A stretch of 64,000 bases of DNA from Terriglobia bacterium (GTDB lineage: Bacteria; Acidobacteriota; Terriglobia; UBA7540): NCBI GenBank assembly GCA_035712365.1, contig DASTAW010000015.1, forward strand, positions 124,001-188,000, written 5' to 3'. Under the pieces are notes generated by a model that was given only the letters and a program-made list of their open reading frames with translations, did not search any database and was not told the DNA's origin. Within the stretch, counting starts at the first letter, position 1; each line of letters begins with the position of its first letter. Both the position numbers and the translations under genes were made by a program. This document shows positions 52,725-63,389 of this stretch, piece after piece.

Positions 52725-52767
52725 TCACCGACTCACCGACTGAAATCCGCCCATAAAAAAATAATGG

Positions 52768-52796
52768 TTGAATGTCTACCCTCGTTAGGGTAGGAT
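52768..52796 (+). promoter_or_regulatory. padR promoter with operator palindrome in the spacer
   Basis: TTGAAT (52768-52773), 17-base spacer, TAGGAT (52791-52796); predicted start of transcription about 52803, next to the ATG at 52804 (leaderless). The spacer holds the perfect inverted repeat CTACCCT-CGTT-AGGGTAG (52776-52793). TCTACC recurs at 52798-52803. This fits autorepression by PadR. Confidence 0.65.
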
Positions 52797-52803
52797 ATCT
52801 ACC

Positions 52804-53160
52804 ATGCCAGAGACGAGAGAACCTGCCAACCGGCTTGAGCTGATGCAAGGCACGCTCGACATGCTGATCCTGCGCACGCTGGTGCTCGGCCCCGCGCACG
52901 GGCACGAAATCGCCAAACACATCCAGCGCACCACCGATGACGTGTTGCAGGTCGAGCACGGATCGCTTTATCCCGCGCTCCATCGCCTCGAGCGCAAAGG
53001 CTGGGTGACGGCACGGTGGGAAATGCCCCGGGGCCGCAAGCGCGAGTTCAAATATTACCGGCTCACGCCCGCCGGCAAAAAGCAGCTTGCCACCGAGCAC
53101 TCAAAGTGGAGGCGGCTCGTGGCCTCCATTGGCCGGGTGATGGAAACGGCGCAAGAATAA
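52804..53160 (+). CDS. PadR-family transcriptional regulator
   Basis: Winged-helix repressor of 118 aa. LELMQGTLDMLILRTLVLGP (about residues 10-29) opens the PadR fold; HGHEIAKHIQRTTDDVLQVEHG and SLYPALHRLERKGWVTARWE supply the recognition helix and wing; the C-terminal YYRLTPAGKKQLATEHSKWR helix forms the dimer. PadR/ADOP pairs are a standard layout in Acidobacteria, so it probably controls the three permease genes downstream, although 359 bases separate it from the first. The palindrome in its own promoter indicates self-regulation. Confidence 0.9.
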   Translation: MPETREPANRLELMQGTLDMLILRTLVLGPAHGHEIAKHIQRTTDDVLQVEHGSLYPALHRLERKGWVTARWEMPRGRKREFKYYRLTPAGKKQLATEHSKWRRLVASIGRVMETAQE

Positions 53161-53519
53161 TTATGAATTCTGAATTATAAGGATGAAATGGGGGCGCAAA
53201 GCATAGCGTCTTTCCGAGGGCTGATGTTTTTGATCGGCCCGAGGAATCTGCTTTCTTTCGTGAGGCGGTAGCGCAGGCCCTTGCGGCCTGCGGTTCTTGC
53301 TTTTGGTTCTGGCGGCGCAGGCCCCTGGCCTGCGGCCTTTGCTGTAGCGGCGCGTTTACCGCGCCATTTGCGATTGGTGATTTGCGATTGATGACTGAGC
53401 GATTGAAATCAATTATGAATTCTGGGTTCTGAGCGAGTAGCGAGCGAGTAGTTTTACTGAAGGCTGAATGCTGATGGCTGACGAACGAACTCCGAAAGCC
53501 GCGGTAAACGAGGTGCAAT
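53161..53519. repeat. Composite repeat between padR and the first ADOP gene
   Basis: 359 bases. GTAGCGC at 53268, then paired GC palindromes (GCAGGCCCTTGCGGCCTGCG and CGCAGGCCCCTGGCCTGCGG) and GTAGCGGCGCGTTTACCGCGCC at 53345-53366. Near-identical copies lie at 56196-56305 and 59590-59695. A word GGCTGAATGCTGATGGCTGA follows at 53462-53481. Confidence 0.65.
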
Positions 53520-56195
53520 ATGAAATTCTGGCGACGGGGAGGACGGCGGCAACGCGAGTCAGACCTTGAGCGCGAGCTGCGCGGCCATCTGGAGCTCGAA
53601 GCCGAAGAGCAGCAGTCCGCGGGCGTGTCTCCCCAAGAAGCCGCCTACGCCGCTCGCCGCGCCCTGGGCAACACCACGCAGATCAAGGAGGACGTGCGCA
53701 CGGCCTGGGGGTTCCAGTGGTTCGAAACCCTGCTCCAGGACTTGCGCTACGGCCTCCGCCAGCTTCGCCGCAATCCGGGCTTTACGGCCGTCGCTGTCAT
53801 CACTCTTGCCTTCGGCATTGGAGCGAACGCCGCCATTTTCAGCGTCATCCAGGCGCTACTACTGCGCTCGCTTCCCGTGCCGAATCCACAGGAACTGTTG
53901 CAAGTTGACATTACGGTAAACGGCATAAAGAGCGATAGCTTCTCTTATCCCATCATTCGGGCGCTTTCGGAACGGAAGGACGTTTTTCGAAATCTGGGCG
54001 GATTCTGCGCCAACCCCTTTAACGTCGGGCTGCGCGGCATGACCGTCCAGACTCCCGGCGAATGGGTAAGCGGAGGCTTCTTTCCTGCGCTGGAGTTGAA
54101 GCCTGCCGCGGGGCGGTTGCTGGCCCCTGCAGACGACCAGCCCGGAGCTCCGCTCGTCGCCGTCATCAGCAGCGGCTATTGGGAACGAAATTTTCATCGC
54201 GACCCGCGAGCAGTTGGTTCGACATTGATCGTGGAACGCCATCCGGTGACCATCGTGGGTGTAGAGCCGCCAGGATTTACTGGTGCGGATGTTGGCGCGG
54301 TTGCCGATCTGACGATGGCCTTTGAGGCCAAAAGGCAACTGAATCCCTACGACGCAGGATTGCTTGAAGCGGGCAACTACTTCATCCGCGTTGTGGCACG
54401 GCCCGCGCATGATCTCACGCCTGATCAGATTCGCGCCCGCCTCCATGTTATCTGGCCGCCAATGGCCGCGGTCTCTGTCACTCCGAAGACGCCGCCTAAG
54501 CGCCTCCAGGCCATGCTCGCGTCATCCCTCGACGTTGAGCCAGGCGGCACAGGTTGGACGCCCCTCAGAAATCAGTATGCGAAGCCACTCTACGTCCTCA
54601 TGGCGCTGTCCGGCCTGGTGTTGCTGGTGGCCTGCGCCAATGTCGCCAACCTGTTGCTGGCTCGCTCGACGGCGCGCCGCCATGAAATTGCAGTGCGACA
54701 CGCCGTGGGAGCCGGCCGAGGACGCATCATTCGCCAGTTTCTCTCTGAGGGCCTTCTTTTAGCGGTGATGGGCGCGGCCGCTGGATTACTGGTCGCGCGA
54801 ATCGGCGGCGCGCTCCTGTTGCGGCTCGCATCGAACGCGTCCTATCCTATCCTTCTTCCCGTGGGTCTGGACGGGCAGGTGTTGGTTTTCATGATGGGTG
54901 TCACGATTCTCACGGGGTTATTGTTTGCGGTGGCGCCGGCGCTTCGGGCGGGCTCGATTGCTCCGGCGCTGGCCTTGAAAGGCGGCGGGCAGTCGTCTCC
55001 CCAAAAAGGTGCCGGGCTTGTTCCCATGCTCGTCGCCGTCCAGGTGGCGTGGTCCCTTCTGCTCCTCATCGGCGCCGGACTCTTCATTCGCACCCTACAA
55101 AAACTTCAGGCGATCGATCCCGGTTTCCAGGACGAAGGAGTACTGTTGTTGGATGTAAACGCTCGTAATGCTCTTCGGGCCGTCGGCCCGCAAGGTGACA
55201 AAGCGGTCTACTCTGTCCTCCGCGATGGCCTGGAAGAGATTTCCCAATTAAATGGAGTGGAGGCAGTGAGTGTCTCGAACTACACGCCCATCTCCGGAGG
55301 ATACTGGTCGCAAGACGTGCTCGTAGACGGGCGGCCAGAGAGTGGCGAGAACCCCGCATTCTTTGCCGTTTCTCCCGGATTTTTTGAAGCTTTACGAATT
55401 CCGTTCGTCGCCGGCCGCGACTTCAAGCTTCGCGACGACGTTGGCGCCCCGCCGGTGGCGATCGTCAATCAGGAATTTGTGCGACGGTTCATGCCGAACG
55501 GGCTACCTCTTGGCCGTCGCGTCTCCGTGGCCGAGTCGCCGTTTTGGCAGAATATGGAAATCGTCGGCGTGACGGCAAATTTCGTACCCTACCTGTTGAG
55601 CCAGCCGACGAGGCCGTGCGTCTTTGTTCCGTTCTTCCAGCAACCGCCGGGCCGCGTGGCGTTTGGAACTTTCGAGATTCACGCGCGCGGGTCTCTCAGC
55701 GCGGTTTCCGCCGCTGTCGAGGGTGTCGCCCGCAGATTGTTGCCGGGAGCTCCGGTAAAGGCCCGGCCGTTCACTGCTCAGGTGGAAGACTCCATCCGCA
55801 CCGAAATCTTGATGGCGAAACTCGCGGGATTTTTCGGCGGGGTAGCCCTCCTCCTTGCAGCCCTTGGGGTTTATGGTTTGCTTGCGTATACCGTAGCGGG
55901 GCGAACCGGAGAGATCGGTGTTCGGATGGCACTGGGCGCCCAGAAAAAAGATGTGTTCGTAATGGTCGTTGCGCAGGGGCTTAGGCTGATACTGATCGGT
56001 TTGGTTTTCGGCGTTGCAGGCGCGCTCGCATTGACGCGTTTCCTGTCGGGCATGCTCTATGGCATCAAGCCCACCGACCCCCTCACGTTCATCGCCGTCT
56101 CGCTGATTCTGATTGCCATTGCGCTCGCGGCCTGTTACATCCCCGCCCGCCGCGCCGCCAAGGTCGATCCCATGGTGGCGCTGCGATATGAGTAG
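53520..56195 (+). CDS. ADOP-type ABC permease, copy 1
   Basis: Acidobacterial duplicated orphan permease of 891 aa. N-terminal permease-prefix domain MKFWRRGGRRQRESDLEREL through [20 protein letters not shown] (about residues 1-70), TM1 VAVITLAFGIGANAAIFSVI, MacB_PCD periplasmic domain (about 115-340), an FtsX block (LYVLMALSGLVLLVACANVA, about 360), a second MacB_PCD domain and a C-terminal FtsX block ending [19 protein letters not shown]. It represents two fused FtsX-type halves. No ATPase is adjacent, as usual for this family; the ATPase at 24753 is far off. The ends match the two following copies, while the periplasmic middle differs strongly. Substrate unknown. Confidence 0.9.
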   Translation: MKFWRRGGRRQRESDLERELRGHLELEAEEQQSAGVSPQEAAYAARRALGNTTQIKEDVRTAWGFQWFETLLQDLRYGLRQLRRNPGFTAVAVITLAFGIGANAAIFSVIQALLLRSLPVPNPQELLQVDITVNGIKSDSFSYPIIRALSERKDVFRNLGGFCANPFNVGLRGMTVQTPGEWVSGGFFPALELKPAAGRLLAPADDQPGAPLVAVISSGYWERNFHRDPRAVGSTLIVERHPVTIVGVEPPGFTGADVGAVADLTMAFEAKRQLNPYDAGLLEAGNYFIRVVARPAHDLTPDQIRARLHVIWPPMAAVSVTPKTPPKRLQAMLASSLDVEPGGTGWTPLRNQYAKPLYVLMALSGLVLLVACANVANLLLARSTARRHEIAVRHAVGAGRGRIIRQFLSEGLLLAVMGAAAGLLVARIGGALLLRLASNASYPILLPVGLDGQVLVFMMGVTILTGLLFAVAPALRAGSIAPALALKGGGQSSPQKGAGLVPMLVAVQVAWSLLLLIGAGLFIRTLQKLQAIDPGFQDEGVLLLDVNARNALRAVGPQGDKAVYSVLRDGLEEISQLNGVEAVSVSNYTPISGGYWSQDVLVDGRPESGENPAFFAVSPGFFEALRIPFVAGRDFKLRDDVGAPPVAIVNQEFVRRFMPNGLPLGRRVSVAESPFWQNMEIVGVTANFVPYLLSQPTRPCVFVPFFQQPPGRVAFGTFEIHARGSLSAVSAAVEGVARRLLPGAPVKARPFTAQVEDSIRTEILMAKLAGFFGGVALLLAALGVYGLLAYTVAGRTGEIGVRMALGAQKKDVFVMVVAQGLRLILIGLVFGVAGALALTRFLSGMLYGIKPTDPLTFIAVSLILIAIALAACYIPARRAAKVDPMVALRYE

Positions 56196-56753
56196 TAGCG
56201 CAGGCCCTTGTGGCCTGCGGTTCTTGCCTTTGGGTTTCGGTGGCGCAGGCCCCTGGCCTGCGGGCTTTGCTGTAGCGGCGCGTTTACCGCGCCATTTGTG
56301 ATTTTCGATTGAGCGATTGGGTGATTGAGCGACCGAAAGGAAGTATGAAGTGTAAAGGATGAAAGCAGGCGGAAACCACAATTACAAATTACGAGTTACG
56401 AATGGCTTTTGTGTTTTTGGGTTCTGAGTTCTGGGTTATGGGATCTGCAATCTGAAATTTGAGATTTCGCGGCCCGGCTGGTCACGAAGCACTAGCCACT
56501 GACCACTGGTTCTCATGGTTCTCATGGTTCTCATGGTTCTGAGGTCAGGGTCCTGAGTTATGGGCTTCGGGTCTGAAATTTGGAATCTGAAATTTGAGAT
56601 TTCAAATCGCGCCAGCGAGCCCGTAGCGCGACCGCCGGGGTTGCGGTCTGCGAGTTTTGCTGAAGGCTGAATGCTGATAGCTGACGAACGAACCGCGGAC
56701 CTCAAAATCGCAGGTCCGCGCTACACCGGAAGCGGCAGCAAACGAGGTGCGAC
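56196..56753. repeat. Composite repeat between ADOP copies 1 and 2
   Basis: 558 bases without a gene. Order: GC palindromes (56196-56270), GTAGCGGCGCGTTTACCGCGCC (56273-56294), ATTTGTGATTTTCGATTGAG word, GGATGAA-type words, four GGTTCTCAT repeats (56506-56539), AT-type inverted word (56576-56610), then a full GTAGCGC...GCGCTAC element (56623-56724). Much of 56271-56620 is repeated at 62921-63140. Confidence 0.7.
56623..56724. repeat. GTAGCGC-ended palindromic element, copy 4 (102 bp)
   Basis: GTAGCGC (56623-56629) and GCGCTAC (56718-56724), with a GACCGCCGGGGTTGCGGTC hairpin inside. The right end stands 29 bases before the ADOP copy 2 start. Confidence 0.7.
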
Positions 56754-59552
56754 ATGAAATTCTGGCGATGGGGCGAGCGGCGGCAGCGCGAGGCGGAGCT
56801 TGAGCGCGAGCTGCGCGGCCATCTGGATCTGGAAGCGGAAGAGCAGCAGGAAGCCGGCGTCTCTCCCGAAGAAGCCGCCTACGCCGCCCGCCGCGCCCTG
56901 GGCAATACCACGCAGATCAAGGAAGACGTGCGCTCGGCCTGGGGCTTCCAGTGGCTCGAAACCCTGCTCCAGGACCTTCGCTACGGCCTCCGCCAGCTCC
57001 GCCGCAACCCGGGCTTCACGATCGTCGCGGTTCTTACTCTGGCGCTCGGCATCGGCGCAAACACTGCCATATTTAGTGTTGTGAACGCCGTGGTGCTGCG
57101 GCCGCTGCCCTATCCGCACAGCGACCGGCTGGTGTGGATTGCCGAATCGATTCCGGCGTTTAAGGCCGAAATCGCGACTGGCGGAGACTTCGTCGATTGG
57201 AAAGATCAGAGCCACACTTTGGACCGGATCGCCGCCTACGACAGGGGAGCCAGGGCGGAGGGCTCCGGGGGCGGCGGGTCCGCCGACTTCAATCTCACCG
57301 GCCGTGGCACGCCAGCACGGGTCCAGGGCGCGGAGGTAAGCGCCAGCTTCTTCGCCACTCTGGGCGTGGAGCCACAACTCGGGCGGGCCTTCACCGGGAA
57401 TGAGGACCAGCCGAACGGGCCTCACGTGGTGGTCCTGATGCACTCCTTCTGGCAGCAGTATTTTGGCTCCGACGCTCACGTGCTGGGCCAGACGGTCAAC
57501 CTCGACACCGCACCCTACACCGTGGTGGGCGTGATGCCGGCGAGCTTCCGTTTCCCGGGGGATTCGGATGCCCAGATCCTGCTGCCGCTGGCTCTCAATC
57601 AGGCCGGTGAGCGGCTTCGCACTCAGTCCCAAAGACTGGTTCGGATTATCGGCCGGTTGAAGCCCGGCGTCTCGCTCGCTGCCGCCCGGGCCGACCTGGA
57701 TGAAATCCGGCAACGAGCGCAGCCGTCCGGCGAACCCATGCTGGCCGGGGGCGAAGGCGGTCCCGCTCGGCGGGATCGCGCAATGCGGAATCCAGGGCCC
57801 GGCGGTCCCGGTGGCCGATTGCGCTACGACACTTCAGGTCGCCCGGAGGCGGCTGCGAGTGGCCGCACGGCCCCGCCGGCCAGCGAGCTCAAAGTGGTGC
57901 CACTCGCCGAACACCTGGCGGGGAACCTGCGCCCGGCCATGCTGACCTTGCTCGGGGCAGTCGGCCTGGTCTTGCTGATCGCTTGCGCCAACGTCGCCAA
58001 CTTGATGCTGACGCGCGCCTCAGCCCGGACGCGGGAAGTGGCGATGCGGGCCGCCCTCGGCGCGGGGCGCTGGCGCCTGGTCCGGCAGCTCCTGGTGGAG
58101 AGTGTGACACTGGCGGTGGCCGGTGGCGTGGCGGGATTGCTGCTTGCGGCCTGGAGCGTCGATGCCATGGCGCGCCTCATCCCGGCGGGCCCCGGAGGCG
58201 GCATCCTGGCGGTGGCGGCGCCCAAAGTGGATGGCAACGTTCTGCTTTTTGCGCTGGCCGCCTCGATTTTCACTGGAATCCTTTTCGGTCTTGCGCCTGC
58301 CGTTACCCTCACGCGTTCTGACCTTGCCGAAGGGCTCAAGGAAAGCGCTCAGGTGGCAAGCTCCGGCGGCCGCCGCGGGTGGCTTCGAGGAGCACTGGCC
58401 GTGGCTGAACTTTCCCTCGCGCTGGTACTACTGATCGGCGCCGGCCTGCTCATCAAGAGCTTCTATCGCGTCCTCCAGGTCAGCCCAGGCTTCGTGCCGG
58501 AACACGTTCTGACCATGGACCTCAGCCTTACGGACGCGCAATACCCGGCGCCCCGGCAGAAATCGGAGTTCTTCTCGCAAGTCCTGCGCCGCGTCGAGTC
58601 TTTGCCGGGCGTTCGCTCTGCGGCCCTCGCTGATTCTCTGCCGCTCAGTCCATATCAAACCTTCCTGATGATGCCCCTCAACCGTCTTCTGCCGAGGGTG
58701 GCGCTCTCGAGTTCCACAAGGGTGATGATATCGCGGCTCAAGGTGAGCCCGGGGTACTTCTACACGCTTGGCATTCCGGTGCTTAAAGGCCGCACCTTCA
58801 CCGGCCACGACAACGAGCAGGCGCTGAAAGTTGCGGTGGTGAACGAGACCTTGGCGCGCCACCTTTGGCCGTCAGAGGACCCCATCGGCAAACAGTTCCC
58901 GCTCTTCGGCGATAATCTGATCGTGGTCGGCGTAGTAGGCAACACCCGCCACGAAGGCTTGAGCCAGGACACCGAGGCCGAGTTTTACGTGCCCTATCTC
59001 CAATCGCCGGACGACTCCATGCAACTCGCCGTCCGCACCACCGCTGAGCCGGACAGCATCGTCTCCGCGGTGCGCGCCCAGGTCAGGGACATCGATCCCG
59101 ACCAGCCGCTCTATCACGTGGCCGCGCTCCAACAGGTCCTGTCGGAGTCGCTGGCCCCGCGGCGCTTTAACCTGCTTCTGCTGGGGATTTTCGCCCTCAT
59201 TGCCCTTGCGCTGGCAACGGTTGGGATCTACGGTGTGATGGCGTTCTCGGTGACCCAGCGTACCCACGAGATCGGCATTCGCATGGCCCTCGGAGCGCAG
59301 AAGGGTCAAGTGTTGAGGATGGTGATCGGACATGGACTCAAGCTGGCGGTGATCGGCATTGCCGTCGGCATCGCCGGAGCGCTGGCGCTGACGCGATTCC
59401 TGACGAGCTTGCTCTACGGCGTCAAGCCCACCGACCCGCTGACGTTCGTCGCCGTCTCGATGATTCTGATCGCCGTGGCGCTCGCGGCCTGCTACATTCC
59501 CGCCCGCCGCGCCGCCAAAGTCGATCCCATGGTGGCGCTGAGGTACGAGTGA
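56754..59552 (+). CDS. ADOP-type ABC permease, copy 2
   Basis: Orphan permease of 932 aa with the same layout as copy 1: prefix domain [20 protein letters not shown] to [22 protein letters not shown]1 [20 protein letters not shown], MacB_PCD, FtsX ([20 protein letters not shown], about residue 400), MacB_PCD, FtsX. It is the longest copy, with a Gly/Arg/Ala-rich loop of about 50 residues before the first FtsX block ([20 protein letters not shown]). The C-terminus ([20 protein letters not shown] and [17 protein letters not shown]-like end) is nearly the same as in copy 3 at the DNA level. GAGGTG precedes the ATG. No ATPase nearby. Confidence 0.9.
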
Positions 59553-59773
59553 GGCAGCGGTTAGGGATTAGTGGTTAGTGAGTAGCCGGGTAGCGCAGGC
59601 CCTTGCGGCCTGCGGTTCTTGCCTTTGGTTCTGGTGGCGCAGGCCCCTGGCCTGCGGCCTTTGCTGTAGCGGCGCGTTTACCGCGCCATTCGCGATTTGC
59701 TTGTGCTGAATGCTGAGAGCTGACTGCCGAACGCTGATAGCTGAGAGATGAAAGCTGCCAAACGAGGTGCAAG
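59553..59773. repeat. Composite repeat between ADOP copies 2 and 3
   Basis: GTAGCGC at 59590, twin GCAGGCCC palindromes and GTAGCGGCGCGTTTACCGCGCC (about 59666-59687); nearly identical to 53268-53366 and 56200-56294. A GCTGAATGCTGAGAGCTGAC word follows. Confidence 0.65.
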
Positions 59774-62533
59774 ATGAAATTCTGGCGATGGGGTAAGCGG
59801 CGGCAACGCGAGGCAGAGCTCGAGCGCGAGTTGCGCAGCCATCTGGAATTGGAATCGGAAGAGCAACAGGCCGCGGGCGTCTCTCCGGAAGAAGCCGCCT
59901 ACGCCGCCCGGCGCGCCCTGGGCAACACCACTCAGATCAAGGAAGACGTGCGCACGGCCTGGGGATTCCAGTGGCTCGAAACCCTGCTCCAGGACGTCCG
60001 CTACGGCCTTCGCCAGCTTCGCCGCAACCCGGGATTCACCATCGTCGCGGCTCTTACTCTGGCGCTCGGCATTGGAGCCAACACGGCGATTTTCAGTTTG
60101 ATCGACGCCGTGGCCTTGAAAGGCTTGCCAGTGAAAAACCCGGAGCAGCTTCAAGTGCTCACCTGGACATGTGGCTCGAACACCCTTCCCCTCGCCAGCA
60201 ATGTTGGCTACAAGTTTCGGGACTCGGCCGGCGGTCAGGTGTGCTCATCATTTTCGTACCCATTGTTTGAGCAATTCCAAACTCAAACCGACACTTTCTC
60301 GAGCGTCTTCGGATATGCGCCCCTGGGTTCTGGGAAGCCGAATTTAAATGTCAGCGTTGAAGGTCACGTCGGCACGATTGCGGGGGAGATGGTGACGGGC
60401 GGCTATTTTTCAGGCCTCGGTGTCACGCCCATTCTCGGCCGGCCAATTACCGCGGAAGATGAGAAACCCAATGCCCCAGCAACGGCAATTATCAGCTACC
60501 GATATTGGGCCGGCGAGTTGAACCGCAACCCTGGCGTCATTGGCAAAACCATTGCCCTAAATGGAATGCCTTTTACCATCATCGGCGTAATGCCGTCTGA
60601 TTTCTTTGGCCTTGACTCTGAGAGTCTGACGGACGTTTGGGTCCCCGCCGCACCCCGGCTTGGTTTGGCGCCCTGGGGAAAACCACCCACTGCTGGCCGC
60701 TCGCTGTTTACTTCCGAAGATCAGTACTGGCTGATCGTCATGGGCCGGCTGCGGCCTGCAGTTACAAGTCCTCAGGCAACTGCGCGGTTGAACCTGCTCT
60801 TCGGACAGAGGCTTGCAGTTCTCCCAAAGTCAAGCCCTAAGGTGGAAAGCCTCCCTCAAGTAATACTCTTACCTGCCAGGAATGGGTTGGCAGGTCTGAG
60901 GCAGCAGCTTTCGGTGCCACTTCTGATGTTAGGAATCATGACGGGCCTCGTACTGCTGATTGCCTGCGCTAATGTGGCCAGTCTGTTACTGGTCCGGGCT
61001 GTGACACGACGGAGGGAAATCGGTATCCGCTTGGCGGTCGGAGCATCGCGGTCACGCTTGGTCCGTCAGCTACTCACGGAAAGTGTTCTGCTGGCGGGCA
61101 TTGGCGGAACCATGGGCTTGCTGTTCGGGATCTGGATCCTCCGCGTTCTTCTGCTGATGCTTTCCGGCAATGGAGAACAGGTTCCTCATAATGTTGGGCT
61201 CGATCCAACCGTATTGGGGTTTACGGTTGCGGTGGCTCTTTTGACCGGCATCCTATTTGGCCTCGCACCTTCGCTGCGTGCGACGGAGTTGAGCGTGACG
61301 CCGCGTTTGAAGGAAACTGAGGACCGCATCATCGGCGGCGGCCAACGAACCCTCAGGCTTGGGAATGTCATGGTGATCGGTCAAGTTGCTGTTTCTCTCG
61401 TCCTGTTGGTAGCTGCAGGTCTTCTGGTGAGCACGCTGCGTAATCTCAAAAGCCAAAATCTTGGCTTTGACACGCACAACCTGCTCCTCTTCAGCGTCGA
61501 TCCAACTGCGCTCAATTACGATCGACCACATTTGCTCCATTTATACGATCAATTGCAGCAAGGGCTTGAGACGCTTCCGGGCGTAAGGGCAGCCACATTA
61601 TCGCTATTGGGCTTGGCCTCCGGCGCAGTCAACACAGACCAGATCTCGATCGACGGATACAAGATGGACCGAGGCCAGACTCCCGAAATCTTTTGGAACG
61701 CTGTCGGTCCTGGCTTCTTTGAGACGATGGAGATTCCGCTTTTGATCGGGCGGGGCATTAACTCACATGATACGGAGGGATCATCGAAAGTGGCAGTAGT
61801 GAATGAAAGCTTGGCGCGGTACTTTTTTGGCGATGCGAATCCGATTGGTCGACGAATCAGAATTGGAGCCAACCAGCAGCAGAACGATACGCTCGAGATC
61901 GTGGGCATCGCCAAGGACGTCAAAGACTCAGATCTGCATGAGAGCCCTCCCCGGACCATTTACATTCCCTATGCGCAAATGCCCGGACCGCTCGGCAGCA
62001 TTCAATTCGAGATACGCACAAATATAAGCGCAGCCGCCCTGGTTCCCTCGGTTCGGGGCCTCGTGCGTGAGCTTGATTCTCATCTGCCAATCTTGGACGT
62101 GAAGACTGAAAGGGAACAGATCGATGAGTCAGTTTTGCAGGAACGGCTATTTGCCGGTCTTTCCTCCTTTGCTGGTGCATTCGCCCTCTTGCTGGCATGC
62201 ATCGGGCTGTACGGCACGGTCGCCCACTCCGTCAACAGAAGAACCCATGAAATCGGCATTCGCATGGCGCTCGGAGCCGCGCGGCGCGATGCAACGAGGC
62301 TCATCATCTCCCAGGGCGTCGCATTGACGCTGGTCGGTGTTGCCGTCGGCATTGCCGGCGCGCTGGCGCTGACGCGCTTTTTGTCGAGCCTGCTTTACGG
62401 CGTCAAGCCCACCGACCCGCTCACGTTTGCCGCCGTCTCGCTCATCCTGATCGCCGTGGCGCTCGCGGGCTGCTACATCCCCGCCCGCCGCGCCGCCAAA
62501 GTCGATCCCATGGTGGCGCTGAGATATGAGTGA
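59774..62533 (+). CDS. ADOP-type ABC permease, copy 3
   Basis: Orphan permease of 919 aa: prefix domain ([20 protein letters not shown]), TM1 [20 protein letters not shown], MacB_PCD, FtsX ([20 protein letters not shown]), second MacB_PCD, C-terminal FtsX with [20 protein letters not shown] and the family ending. It differs from copies 1 and 2 mainly in the periplasmic parts, with extra cysteines (TWTCGSNTLPLASN, QVCSSFSYPL). The middle is also less GC-rich in its codons than the ends, which suggests a mosaic origin. Last gene of the cluster. Confidence 0.9.
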   Translation: MKFWRWGKRRQREAELERELRSHLELESEEQQAAGVSPEEAAYAARRALGNTTQIKEDVRTAWGFQWLETLLQDVRYGLRQLRRNPGFTIVAALTLALGIGANTAIFSLIDAVALKGLPVKNPEQLQVLTWTCGSNTLPLASNVGYKFRDSAGGQVCSSFSYPLFEQFQTQTDTFSSVFGYAPLGSGKPNLNVSVEGHVGTIAGEMVTGGYFSGLGVTPILGRPITAEDEKPNAPATAIISYRYWAGELNRNPGVIGKTIALNGMPFTIIGVMPSDFFGLDSESLTDVWVPAAPRLGLAPWGKPPTAGRSLFTSEDQYWLIVMGRLRPAVTSPQATARLNLLFGQRLAVLPKSSPKVESLPQVILLPARNGLAGLRQQLSVPLLMLGIMTGLVLLIACANVASLLLVRAVTRRREIGIRLAVGASRSRLVRQLLTESVLLAGIGGTMGLLFGIWILRVLLLMLSGNGEQVPHNVGLDPTVLGFTVAVALLTGILFGLAPSLRATELSVTPRLKETEDRIIGGGQRTLRLGNVMVIGQVAVSLVLLVAAGLLVSTLRNLKSQNLGFDTHNLLLFSVDPTALNYDRPHLLHLYDQLQQGLETLPGVRAATLSLLGLASGAVNTDQISIDGYKMDRGQTPEIFWNAVGPGFFETMEIPLLIGRGINSHDTEGSSKVAVVNESLARYFFGDANPIGRRIRIGANQQQNDTLEIVGIAKDVKDSDLHESPPRTIYIPYAQMPGPLGSIQFEIRTNISAAALVPSVRGLVRELDSHLPILDVKTEREQIDESVLQERLFAGLSSFAGAFALLLACIGLYGTVAHSVNRRTHEIGIRMALGAARRDATRLIISQGVALTLVGVAVGIAGALALTRFLSSLLYGVKPTDPLTFAAVSLILIAVALAGCYIPARRAAKVDPMVALRYE

Positions 62534-63389
62534 GGCAGTGATCAGTGGTTAGTGGCAACCAAGAGCGGGAACGAGGGCACGCTGTAGCGGCGAGTTTACC
62601 TCGCCACCTCTCGAATTGGCGGCGTAAAGCCGCCGCTACAGAGTCGGGCCGCATCTGCAAGGGGGATGCGGCAATTCCGGTGTCGAGGCTTGGAGAAAGT
62701 TCAGGCCGAAGGGTCGCTGGCCACCACAGCTTATAACCTCACGCGGATGTGGCGAGCGGCCCCGAAGGCAGCGGGCTAGCCCCGGCGGAGAACCGGCCCA
62801 GAGTCGCAAGTGACCATCTCGGGCTGAATCCAGAATCATAAATCCATCTCGCACATTACGCGAATGGCAAAGCACCAACGCAAAACCGAGTTCGCACACA
62901 GACTCTTTAGCCCCTGAATCTGTAACGGCGCGTTTACCGCGCCATTTGTGATTTTCGATTGAGCGACCGAAAGGAAGTATGAAGTGGGAAGGATGAAGGA
63001 TGAAAGCAGGCGGAAATCGCAGTTACAGATTGCGAGGCCACTGACCACTGGTTCTGATGATTCTGAGTTCAGGGTTATGAGTCATGGGTTTGAGATCTGA
63101 ACTTTGGAATCTGAAATTTGAGATTTCAAATCGCGCCAGCGGGCCGGTCGCGCCGGCCCTGCCGGCAACCGACAGTGCATGATCTAGGCTCAATTAGTAG
63201 CCTACTAACCGGCCCCAACCACAAAAATGAGACGTTTGGGACTTTTGTTAAAAAATTAATGAATTTTGTAAATATATTAATATCAATAACTTATATATTA
63301 TTCCAGCTTCCAAAAACTGCGGCTTTGCGAAATTGTGTTCAATTCCCGCACAGCGGGTAATAACTACACCCTCGGATCTGAACTCATAA
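62534..63389. repeat. 856-base gene-free region after ADOP copy 3
   Basis: Contains a GTAGCGGCG...CGCCGCTAC element (62584-62639), a copy of the ADOP1-ADOP2 intergenic block (62921-63140), and a strongly AT-rich stretch (about 63236-63315). Both flanking genes converge on it. No gene is supported. Confidence 0.65.
62584..62639. repeat. GTAGCGGCG-ended palindromic element, copy 5 (56 bp)
   Basis: Perfect inverted ends GTAGCGGCG (62584-62592) and CGCCGCTAC (62631-62639), each part of a smaller hairpin (GGCGAG-TTTAC-CTCGCC; GGCGGC-GTAAA-GCCGCC). Confidence 0.75.

Follow-up and report, generated by a model that had tools for sequence, protein, structure and literature searches.

PadR-type repressors canonically bind an inverted repeat of the form ATGT-N8 to N10-ACAT. 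The members of PadR subfamily 2, the LmrR type, are proteins of about 100 residues with a single winged-helix domain and a C-terminal dimerization helix. LmrR of Lactococcus lactis represses its own gene and transporter genes, from operators at lmrR and lmrCD, with more than one dimer per promoter region and contact with the -35 and -10 elements; in the parts of the two accounts drawn on here, these differ as to whether it is the lmrR or the lmrCD operator that takes two dimers (PMC4534193, PMC5428041). LftR, LstR and LltR of Listeria monocytogenes are autoregulatory PadR repressors of membrane-protein genes, for which the sections consulted (PMC6624303, PMC6457526) describe no tandem dyad merged with promoter hexamers, unlike the operator considered below. 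The small PadR protein bcPadR1 of Bacillus cereus binds the promoter region of its own gene; according to the portion of the report used here, its proposed site is a single inverted repeat, ATGT-N10-ATAA (PMC3506622). In acidobacteria, protein models exist for a PadR family (padR_acidobact, TIGR03433) and for the ADOP family of permeases (TIGR03434), and these cover the proteins only. A search of the literature by title and abstract, with subscription journals thinly covered, returned no description of an operator or regulon of an acidobacterial PadR or ADOP.

The locus analysed here, from a Terriglobia bacterium, belongs to both families according to these models. It lies in a stretch of 64,000 nucleotides (contig DASTAW010000015.1, positions 124,001 to 188,000), which is referred to below as the window. 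It resembles the LmrR system, as far as the extracts cited above describe it, in having a small PadR, presumed control of its own gene and of transporter genes, and a precedent for two dimers, binding in the present case being deduced from the DNA sequence. It differs from LmrR in that the ATGT-N8/10-ACAT site is replaced by GTAG-N5-CTAC, present twice and merged with the promoter hexamers at the promoter period, and in that the partner genes encode ADOP permeases; the two dyads likewise set it apart from the single inverted repeat proposed for bcPadR1. What would be new is a different operator word and the merger of operator and promoter, in an otherwise known type of autoregulated PadR switch.

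The padR locus and its palindrome

The PadR protein of the window scores 143.1 bits with TIGR03433 (E = 2.5e-42, model positions 1-100 of 101, cut-off 101.8 bits) and 78.3 bits with the PadR winged-helix model PF03551 (gathering score 27), and is thus a member by both. Its length is compatible with that of PadR subfamily 2, and solved PadR structures resemble it in sequence, the best being 4ejo (E = 1.8e-13). Three ADOP genes follow on the same strand (Table 1). The genome as a whole (4.67 Mb) has 38 ADOPs and 18 padR_acidobact genes above the cut-offs. The gap between padR and the first ADOP gene is filled with sequence that is repeated before each ADOP; the repeated blocks common to these gaps (D3 and D4) lie at 53267-53375, 56195-56303, 59589-59697 and 62920-62966 and include a GGCGCGTTTACCGCGCC stem, and the ADOP genes with their leaders look like tandem duplications. 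A PDZ-domain gene precedes padR, and some 1.4 kb upstream of the former a gene at 48980-50128 matches the model of the iron exporter MbfA above its cut-off (502.8 bits).

Table 1. Positions of the genes and of the operator and promoter elements in the window.
Feature	Position	Strand	Remarks
Left dyad GGTTG-AATGT-CTACC	52766..52780	+	Core GTTGAATGTCTAC at 52767-52779; contains the -35-like hexamer; GGTTGAACGTCTACC in most of the ortholog group
-35-like hexamer TTGAAT	52768..52773	+	4/6 to the sigma-70 consensus; family-wide TTGAC enrichment 35-42 nt before the start codon
Palindrome CTACCCT-CGTT-AGGGTAG	52776..52793		Two inner half-sites of the dyads plus extensions
Right dyad GGTAG-GATAT-CTACC	52789..52803	+	Core GTAGGATATCTAC at 52790-52802; contains the -10-like hexamer; kept in the ortholog group, degenerate in L030
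-10-like hexamer TAGGAT	52791..52796	+	4/6 to the sigma-70 consensus; family-wide TAGANT at the same place in the right dyad
padR gene	52804..53160	+	118 aa; TIGR03433 and PF03551 profile matches; predicted leaderless mRNA
ADOP family permease 1	53520..56195	+	TIGR03434, 831.5 bits (cut-off 622.3); 359-nt gap from padR; presumed read-through target
ADOP family permease 2	56754..59552	+	TIGR03434, 974.8 bits (cut-off 622.3); presumed read-through target
ADOP family permease 3	59774..62533	+	TIGR03434, 910.0 bits (cut-off 622.3); presumed read-through target

The original prediction was of a PadR operator, a perfect palindrome, placed exactly between the -35 and -10 elements of the padR promoter, with its half-site word TCTACC recurring before the ATG. 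All of these elements are present at the positions given once the coordinates are re-checked, the second TCTACC lying at 52798-52803, directly before the ATG at 52804. The placement is less neat than was claimed: the spacer between TTGAAT and TAGGAT is 17 nt (52774-52790), of which the palindrome spans 15 bases, leaving the first two free and running on over the first three bases of TAGGAT. A promoter scan of the window does not list the TTGAAT/TAGGAT pair. The canonical PadR operator is not found in 52766-52804, where the ATGT at 52772-52775 is not followed by an ACAT at a distance of 8-10 bases.

By itself the palindrome is no proof, because perfect 7+7 palindromes with a 4-base loop are common; there are 10 in the 64-kb window, and the shape as such is unremarkable. 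What goes beyond chance is its exact sequence, together with the fact that the ortholog group keeps the block as a whole. The exact palindrome has one perfect match in the 4.67-Mb genome, and TCTACCCT-N4-AGGGTAG is matched in five of 399 genomes of the class. In four of these (G000, G002, G219 and G293) a PadR gene comes directly after the match; in the fifth, G375, there is no PadR in the stretch examined. The PadR of G002 is 91% identical to that of the window and has the palindrome arms with the loop changed to GAAT, while G006 has kept the arms around a loop of five bases. At the orthologous loci, too, the element is present: the block GGTTGAAYGTCTACC...GGTAGRATNTCTACC-ATG, or its GTAG variant (L129, L146-L148), can be recognized in 13 promoters of the window ortholog group, which include close paralogs, and the sequence upstream of the block is not shared among them. 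There are exceptions: the loop of L029 is longer by one base, L031 has lost the CCT/AGG extension, and L030, with a PadR 87% identical to that of the window, has a right dyad that is nevertheless degenerate (GATAG-AATCT-CTTCC). A role of the palindrome as an RNA hairpin or terminator was considered and rejected, since it lies upstream of the predicted transcription start.

The dyad pair before PadR and ADOP genes

Comparison with the wider family indicates that the palindrome is the inner part of a larger, two-part operator made of two 13-bp dyads, GTAG-N5-CTAC, which in the window recur with a period of 23 bp; the right dyad core ends one base before the ATG. The comparison used the upstream regions of 105 padR_acidobact genes, namely the window gene, 17 paralogs from its own genome, genes from 60 relative genomes, and those of G219 and G293; 107 regions had been gathered, and two of them were dropped, L085 because of a contig end and L087 for want of a recognizable start codon. 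It should be noted that 58 paralogs in the sample were hand-picked among the matches listed, and that start codons were assigned by rule, as the closest in-frame ATG lying 12 nt or more ahead of a conserved motif. With the distance left free, GTAG-N5-CTAC occurs in 31 of the 105 regions, as against 0.07 expected per gap from shuffles, and the inner pair occurs both as CTAC-N10-GTAG (18 regions) and as CTAC-N11-GTAG (nine). Since the dyad stands out at free distance and the inner-pair distance varies, the rigid unit is the 13-bp dyad. The identification of the operator with the central palindrome is accordingly not supported, the recurrent element being GTAG-N5-CTAC in two copies, each of which holds one promoter hexamer. 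The TCTACC before the ATG does recur, as had been noted, and is best read as the outer half of the second dyad and not as an extra half-site word.

Allowing up to two mismatches, the dyad pair is found in 29 of the 105 regions, compared with 0.1 per shuffled set. Its period is 23 or 24 bp in all of them except L032, where it is 32 bp and where no good -35 is seen by eye. The remaining 76 promoters of the family are without a dyad pair at this threshold and have other, single or no recognized sites; among them, six promoters of one clade have the right dyad only, plus a TTGACA -35, from which a single dyad seems to be self-sufficient.

A scan of 299 genomes of the class for the exact pair, GTWG-N5-CTAC-N10/11-GTAG-N5-CTAC, gave 64 distinct sites in 50 genomes, with N10 in 46 and N11 in 18. 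There is a PadR match within 200 nt of 57 sites, both sides being allowed because most exact sites are palindromic in the searched letters; one PadR so assigned, that of L162, is 129 nt away, and in the divergent gap L079 the near PadR is on the other side (L035). Six further sites lie 6 to 106 nt before ADOP genes, the N-terminal pieces of which all match the permease prefix domain and reach 193-271 bits with the ADOP model. At the last site, L134, the contig ends after 3 nt. The same words at N13/14 between the dyads gave no site in the 299 genomes. The reversed pattern was rejected as a control, as its 23 forward matches in 22 genomes involve other words (CATC/GATG), and the control with the same words at another spacing was relied on instead.

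A second scan, of a genome contig collection, gave at least 80 loci; among the matches listed, 68 have a PadR downstream, eight an ADOP and four neither. Of these four, L218 is of low complexity, L275 has a PadR by eye that is cut, L286 is cut, and L244 is unexplained; in the last case (MELC01000027.1, 2222-2257) an exact operator pair has no PadR or ADOP within 250 nt on either side. The two scans, which have several records in common and are not independent of each other, comprise 112 distinct PadR sites between them. The records of the second scan are mostly from Acidobacteriota, with seven of Gemmatimonadota type, one cyanobacterium (L218) and one archaeal bin (L255) among the matches listed. 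The same operator stands before PadR genes in the Gemmatimonadota records L220, L223, L225, L237, L257, L274 and L275 (the last by eye, in a cut contig), which suggests a PadR operator system common to the two phyla, by descent or by transfer. Within the window's own genome, the N10 pattern with up to two mismatches occurs at four places: the window gene, the PadR paralogs L012 and L014, and C20:71609.

Shared promoter bases, translation start and ADOP genes

The dyad period of 23 or 24 bp is that of a hexamer plus 17 or 18 nt, i.e. the -35/-10 period, and is locked to it; as operator and promoter have bases in common, their spacings are equal. Across the 64 exact sites the left dyad mostly reads GTWGACA at the -35 place and the right one GTAGANT at the -10 place, and the same reading is repeated in the 68 PadR sites among the loci listed from the second, overlapping scan. 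TTGAC occurs in 51 of the 105 upstream regions (about 10 expected), with a peak at which the first T is 37 nt before the start codon. At L174/L269 the operator, GTAGACAATCTAC-N10-GTAGATTGTCTAC, is perfectly symmetric outside the loop and gives TAGACA-17-TAGATT on both strands; at such symmetric operators the promoter could work in both directions. In the culturable Terracidiphilus gabretensis S55 (L269) this symmetric copy precedes a PadR.

Hand-written expressions served to label the operator classes, L030 and L032 being placed in class A by hand, and F and 'o' are mixed bags (L014 and L020-L022 are in F by a loose rule); the labels are used only for the statements on Shine-Dalgarno words and on clades. 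A Shine-Dalgarno-like word is present in none of 52 regions of classes A/a/B/C as against 29 of 33 of D/E/F, the count for F being inflated because that class is partly defined by a GGAG word. Nor is there any such word in the last 18 nt of the 30 class A regions. One published sequence criterion for leaderless transcripts, as far as the source was drawn on, is a -10-like TANNNT about 12 bp before the start codon with no Shine-Dalgarno word (PMC3160421). The window padR conforms to this, TAGGAT starting 13 nt before the ATG, and its mRNA is predicted to be leaderless.

It had also been suggested that the switch would control the ADOP array. Elsewhere this has some basis, as the same type of site does stand before ADOP genes, for example in Terriglobus albidus (L280); in the window it is plausible only by way of read-through. 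The ADOP gaps of the window contain no GTAG-N5-CTAC dyad with up to one mismatch; a separate operator for each of these genes was rejected on this ground, and any control of them must therefore be by read-through. In the 12 neighbourhoods compared (L122-L130, L142, L163 and L164) the PadR match has an ADOP match downstream of it on the same strand. The gap between the ends of the two matches is 8 to 75 nt in nine of them (L164, L128, L126, L130, L142, L123, L129, L163 and L127); in L124 it is 271 nt, in L125 304 nt and in L122 628 nt. This arrangement makes a padR-ADOP operon likely. The L128 PadR matches that of the window only in part (53%, residues 6-85), the L130 promoter is not of class A, and L161 has only a partial ADOP match and a different PadR. 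When the regions upstream of 30 of the 38 ADOPs of the own genome were scanned for single dyads, four had one with up to one mismatch (L184, L195, L189 and L196); judging from position and sequence, those of L189 and L196 are right dyads that belong to the immediately preceding PadR genes (L012 and L007).

Mechanism, alternatives and operator classes

The explanation we favour, and consider probable, is an autorepression switch of a padR_acidobact regulator: the operator consists of the same bases as the promoter, each of two dyads probably takes a dimer, and RNA polymerase would be excluded. The two GTWG-N5-CTAC dyads, 23 bp or about two helical turns apart, overlap the -35 on one side and the -10 and start codon on the other. 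One PadR dimer would most likely bind each dyad, both on about the same face of the DNA, and the two together would cover the promoter and exclude RNA polymerase sterically. When the repressor is scarce, or released by a ligand, a leaderless padR mRNA would be made from or next to the ATG, and transcription could then run on into the ADOP permease genes. Several points count against this scheme: the window hexamers are weak, the first ADOP gene is 359 nt away, the half-sites within a dyad are 9 bp apart, centre to centre, a shorter spacing than in ATGT-N8-ACAT, the right dyad of L030 is degenerate despite its closely similar PadR, L032 departs in period and in its -35, and 76 of the 105 promoters do not show the pair at the threshold used. 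As regards the idea of an autorepression switch, the comparison supports a conserved, PadR-associated operator-promoter and does not support the central-palindrome form.

Alternatively, a single PadR dimer might sit on the central palindrome, read as TACC-N8-GGTA, much as canonical PadR proteins do on ATGT-N8-ACAT, with the outer half-sites secondary. We regard this as unlikely, although there is evidence for it. The inner half-sites of the window are 8 bp apart as TACC/GGTA, which is the canonical spacing; the arms are perfect in G002 and G006 despite the changed loops; and LmrR has been reported, in the part of the study used here, to bind 1:1 at a site spaced by 8 bp and 2:1 at one spaced by 10 bp (PMC5428041). 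Flank bases also pair strongly across the central axis: in the 112 PadR sites, 53 against 31.0 expected and 51 against 32.7, whereas within the dyad the values are 41 against 30.2 and 43 against 34.5. Because pairing across the axis exceeds that within the dyad, the central axis matters too, the assembly being symmetric about that of the palindrome, and a central PadR dimer may exist. A central dimer as the sole occupant is at odds with the varying inner distance (N10 or N11 in the exact sites) while the dyad N5 stands out at free distance, with the loss of the CCT/AGG extension in L031, and with the six promoters in which a dyad has no inner partner.

The element could, in principle, belong to another regulator, or be a promoter motif alone, and precede PadR genes by coincidence, given that the binding of PadR to it is deduced from sequence. 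This we hold to be very improbable: 63 of the 64 exact sites in the 299 genomes stand before PadR or ADOP genes, the operator class follows the PadR clade, and a promoter as such does not need GTAG-N5-CTAC dyads. The abundance of perfect 7+7 palindromes in the window and the hexamers with only four of six consensus bases each might even suggest a chance palindrome beside a weak promoter look-alike. Conservation of the block in the ortholog group next to diverged flanks, and enrichment of the dyad pair both over shuffles and over the other spacing, in our view refute that reading, to which we leave next to no probability.

When the operator labels are placed on the PadR tree (104 rows), the eight labels require 16 changes, as against a mean of 65.9 after shuffling, with none of 200 shuffles as low. 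Operator class thus appears to follow PadR clade, with the proviso that the tree is only partly supported (43 of its 101 inner branches are open) and that relatedness alone clusters labels. Classes D and E (L006 and L008 of the own genome, with relatives) are quite different, the promoter being surrounded by long inverted repeats, of which CTTGTACTTCGACA...TGTAGAAGTACAAG is an example for D and TTGATTATTGACA...TGTCAATGACTGAGGGG for E, mostly with Shine-Dalgarno-like words. Class B (L044, L045, L048, L068 and L077) has the operator-like word TTGACATTCTAGGTG...CACCTAGAATG, and class C (L010, L037, L043, L069 and L070) has TTGACATCTTACCC...CTTGGGT, both without Shine-Dalgarno words. At G025:C144, a single gap serves a divergent pair of PadR genes (L035 and L079), one of which has an operator of class A and the other an operator of class C; this gap is a natural test of insulation.

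A broader scheme can be put forward tentatively, and we rate it at somewhat below an even chance. Acidobacterial PadRs would form insulated, self-repressing channels, each with a clade-specific operator word superimposed on the -35 and -10 elements, the promoters being mostly leaderless; the same bases would be read by the repressor and by RNA polymerase, the operator period would be fixed by the promoter period, and each channel would have its own ADOP array, the arrays having expanded with re-coding of the operators. The locus is a clear case of operator spacing equal to promoter spacing through shared bases. A readable operator of this kind amounts to a cis-regulatory code, by which repressors may be assigned to their targets from sequence alone, including those ADOPs that have a site of their own. 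ADOP permeases and PadR regulators are greatly expanded in these bacteria, and a readable operator makes the avoidance of cross-talk among similar repressors directly testable.
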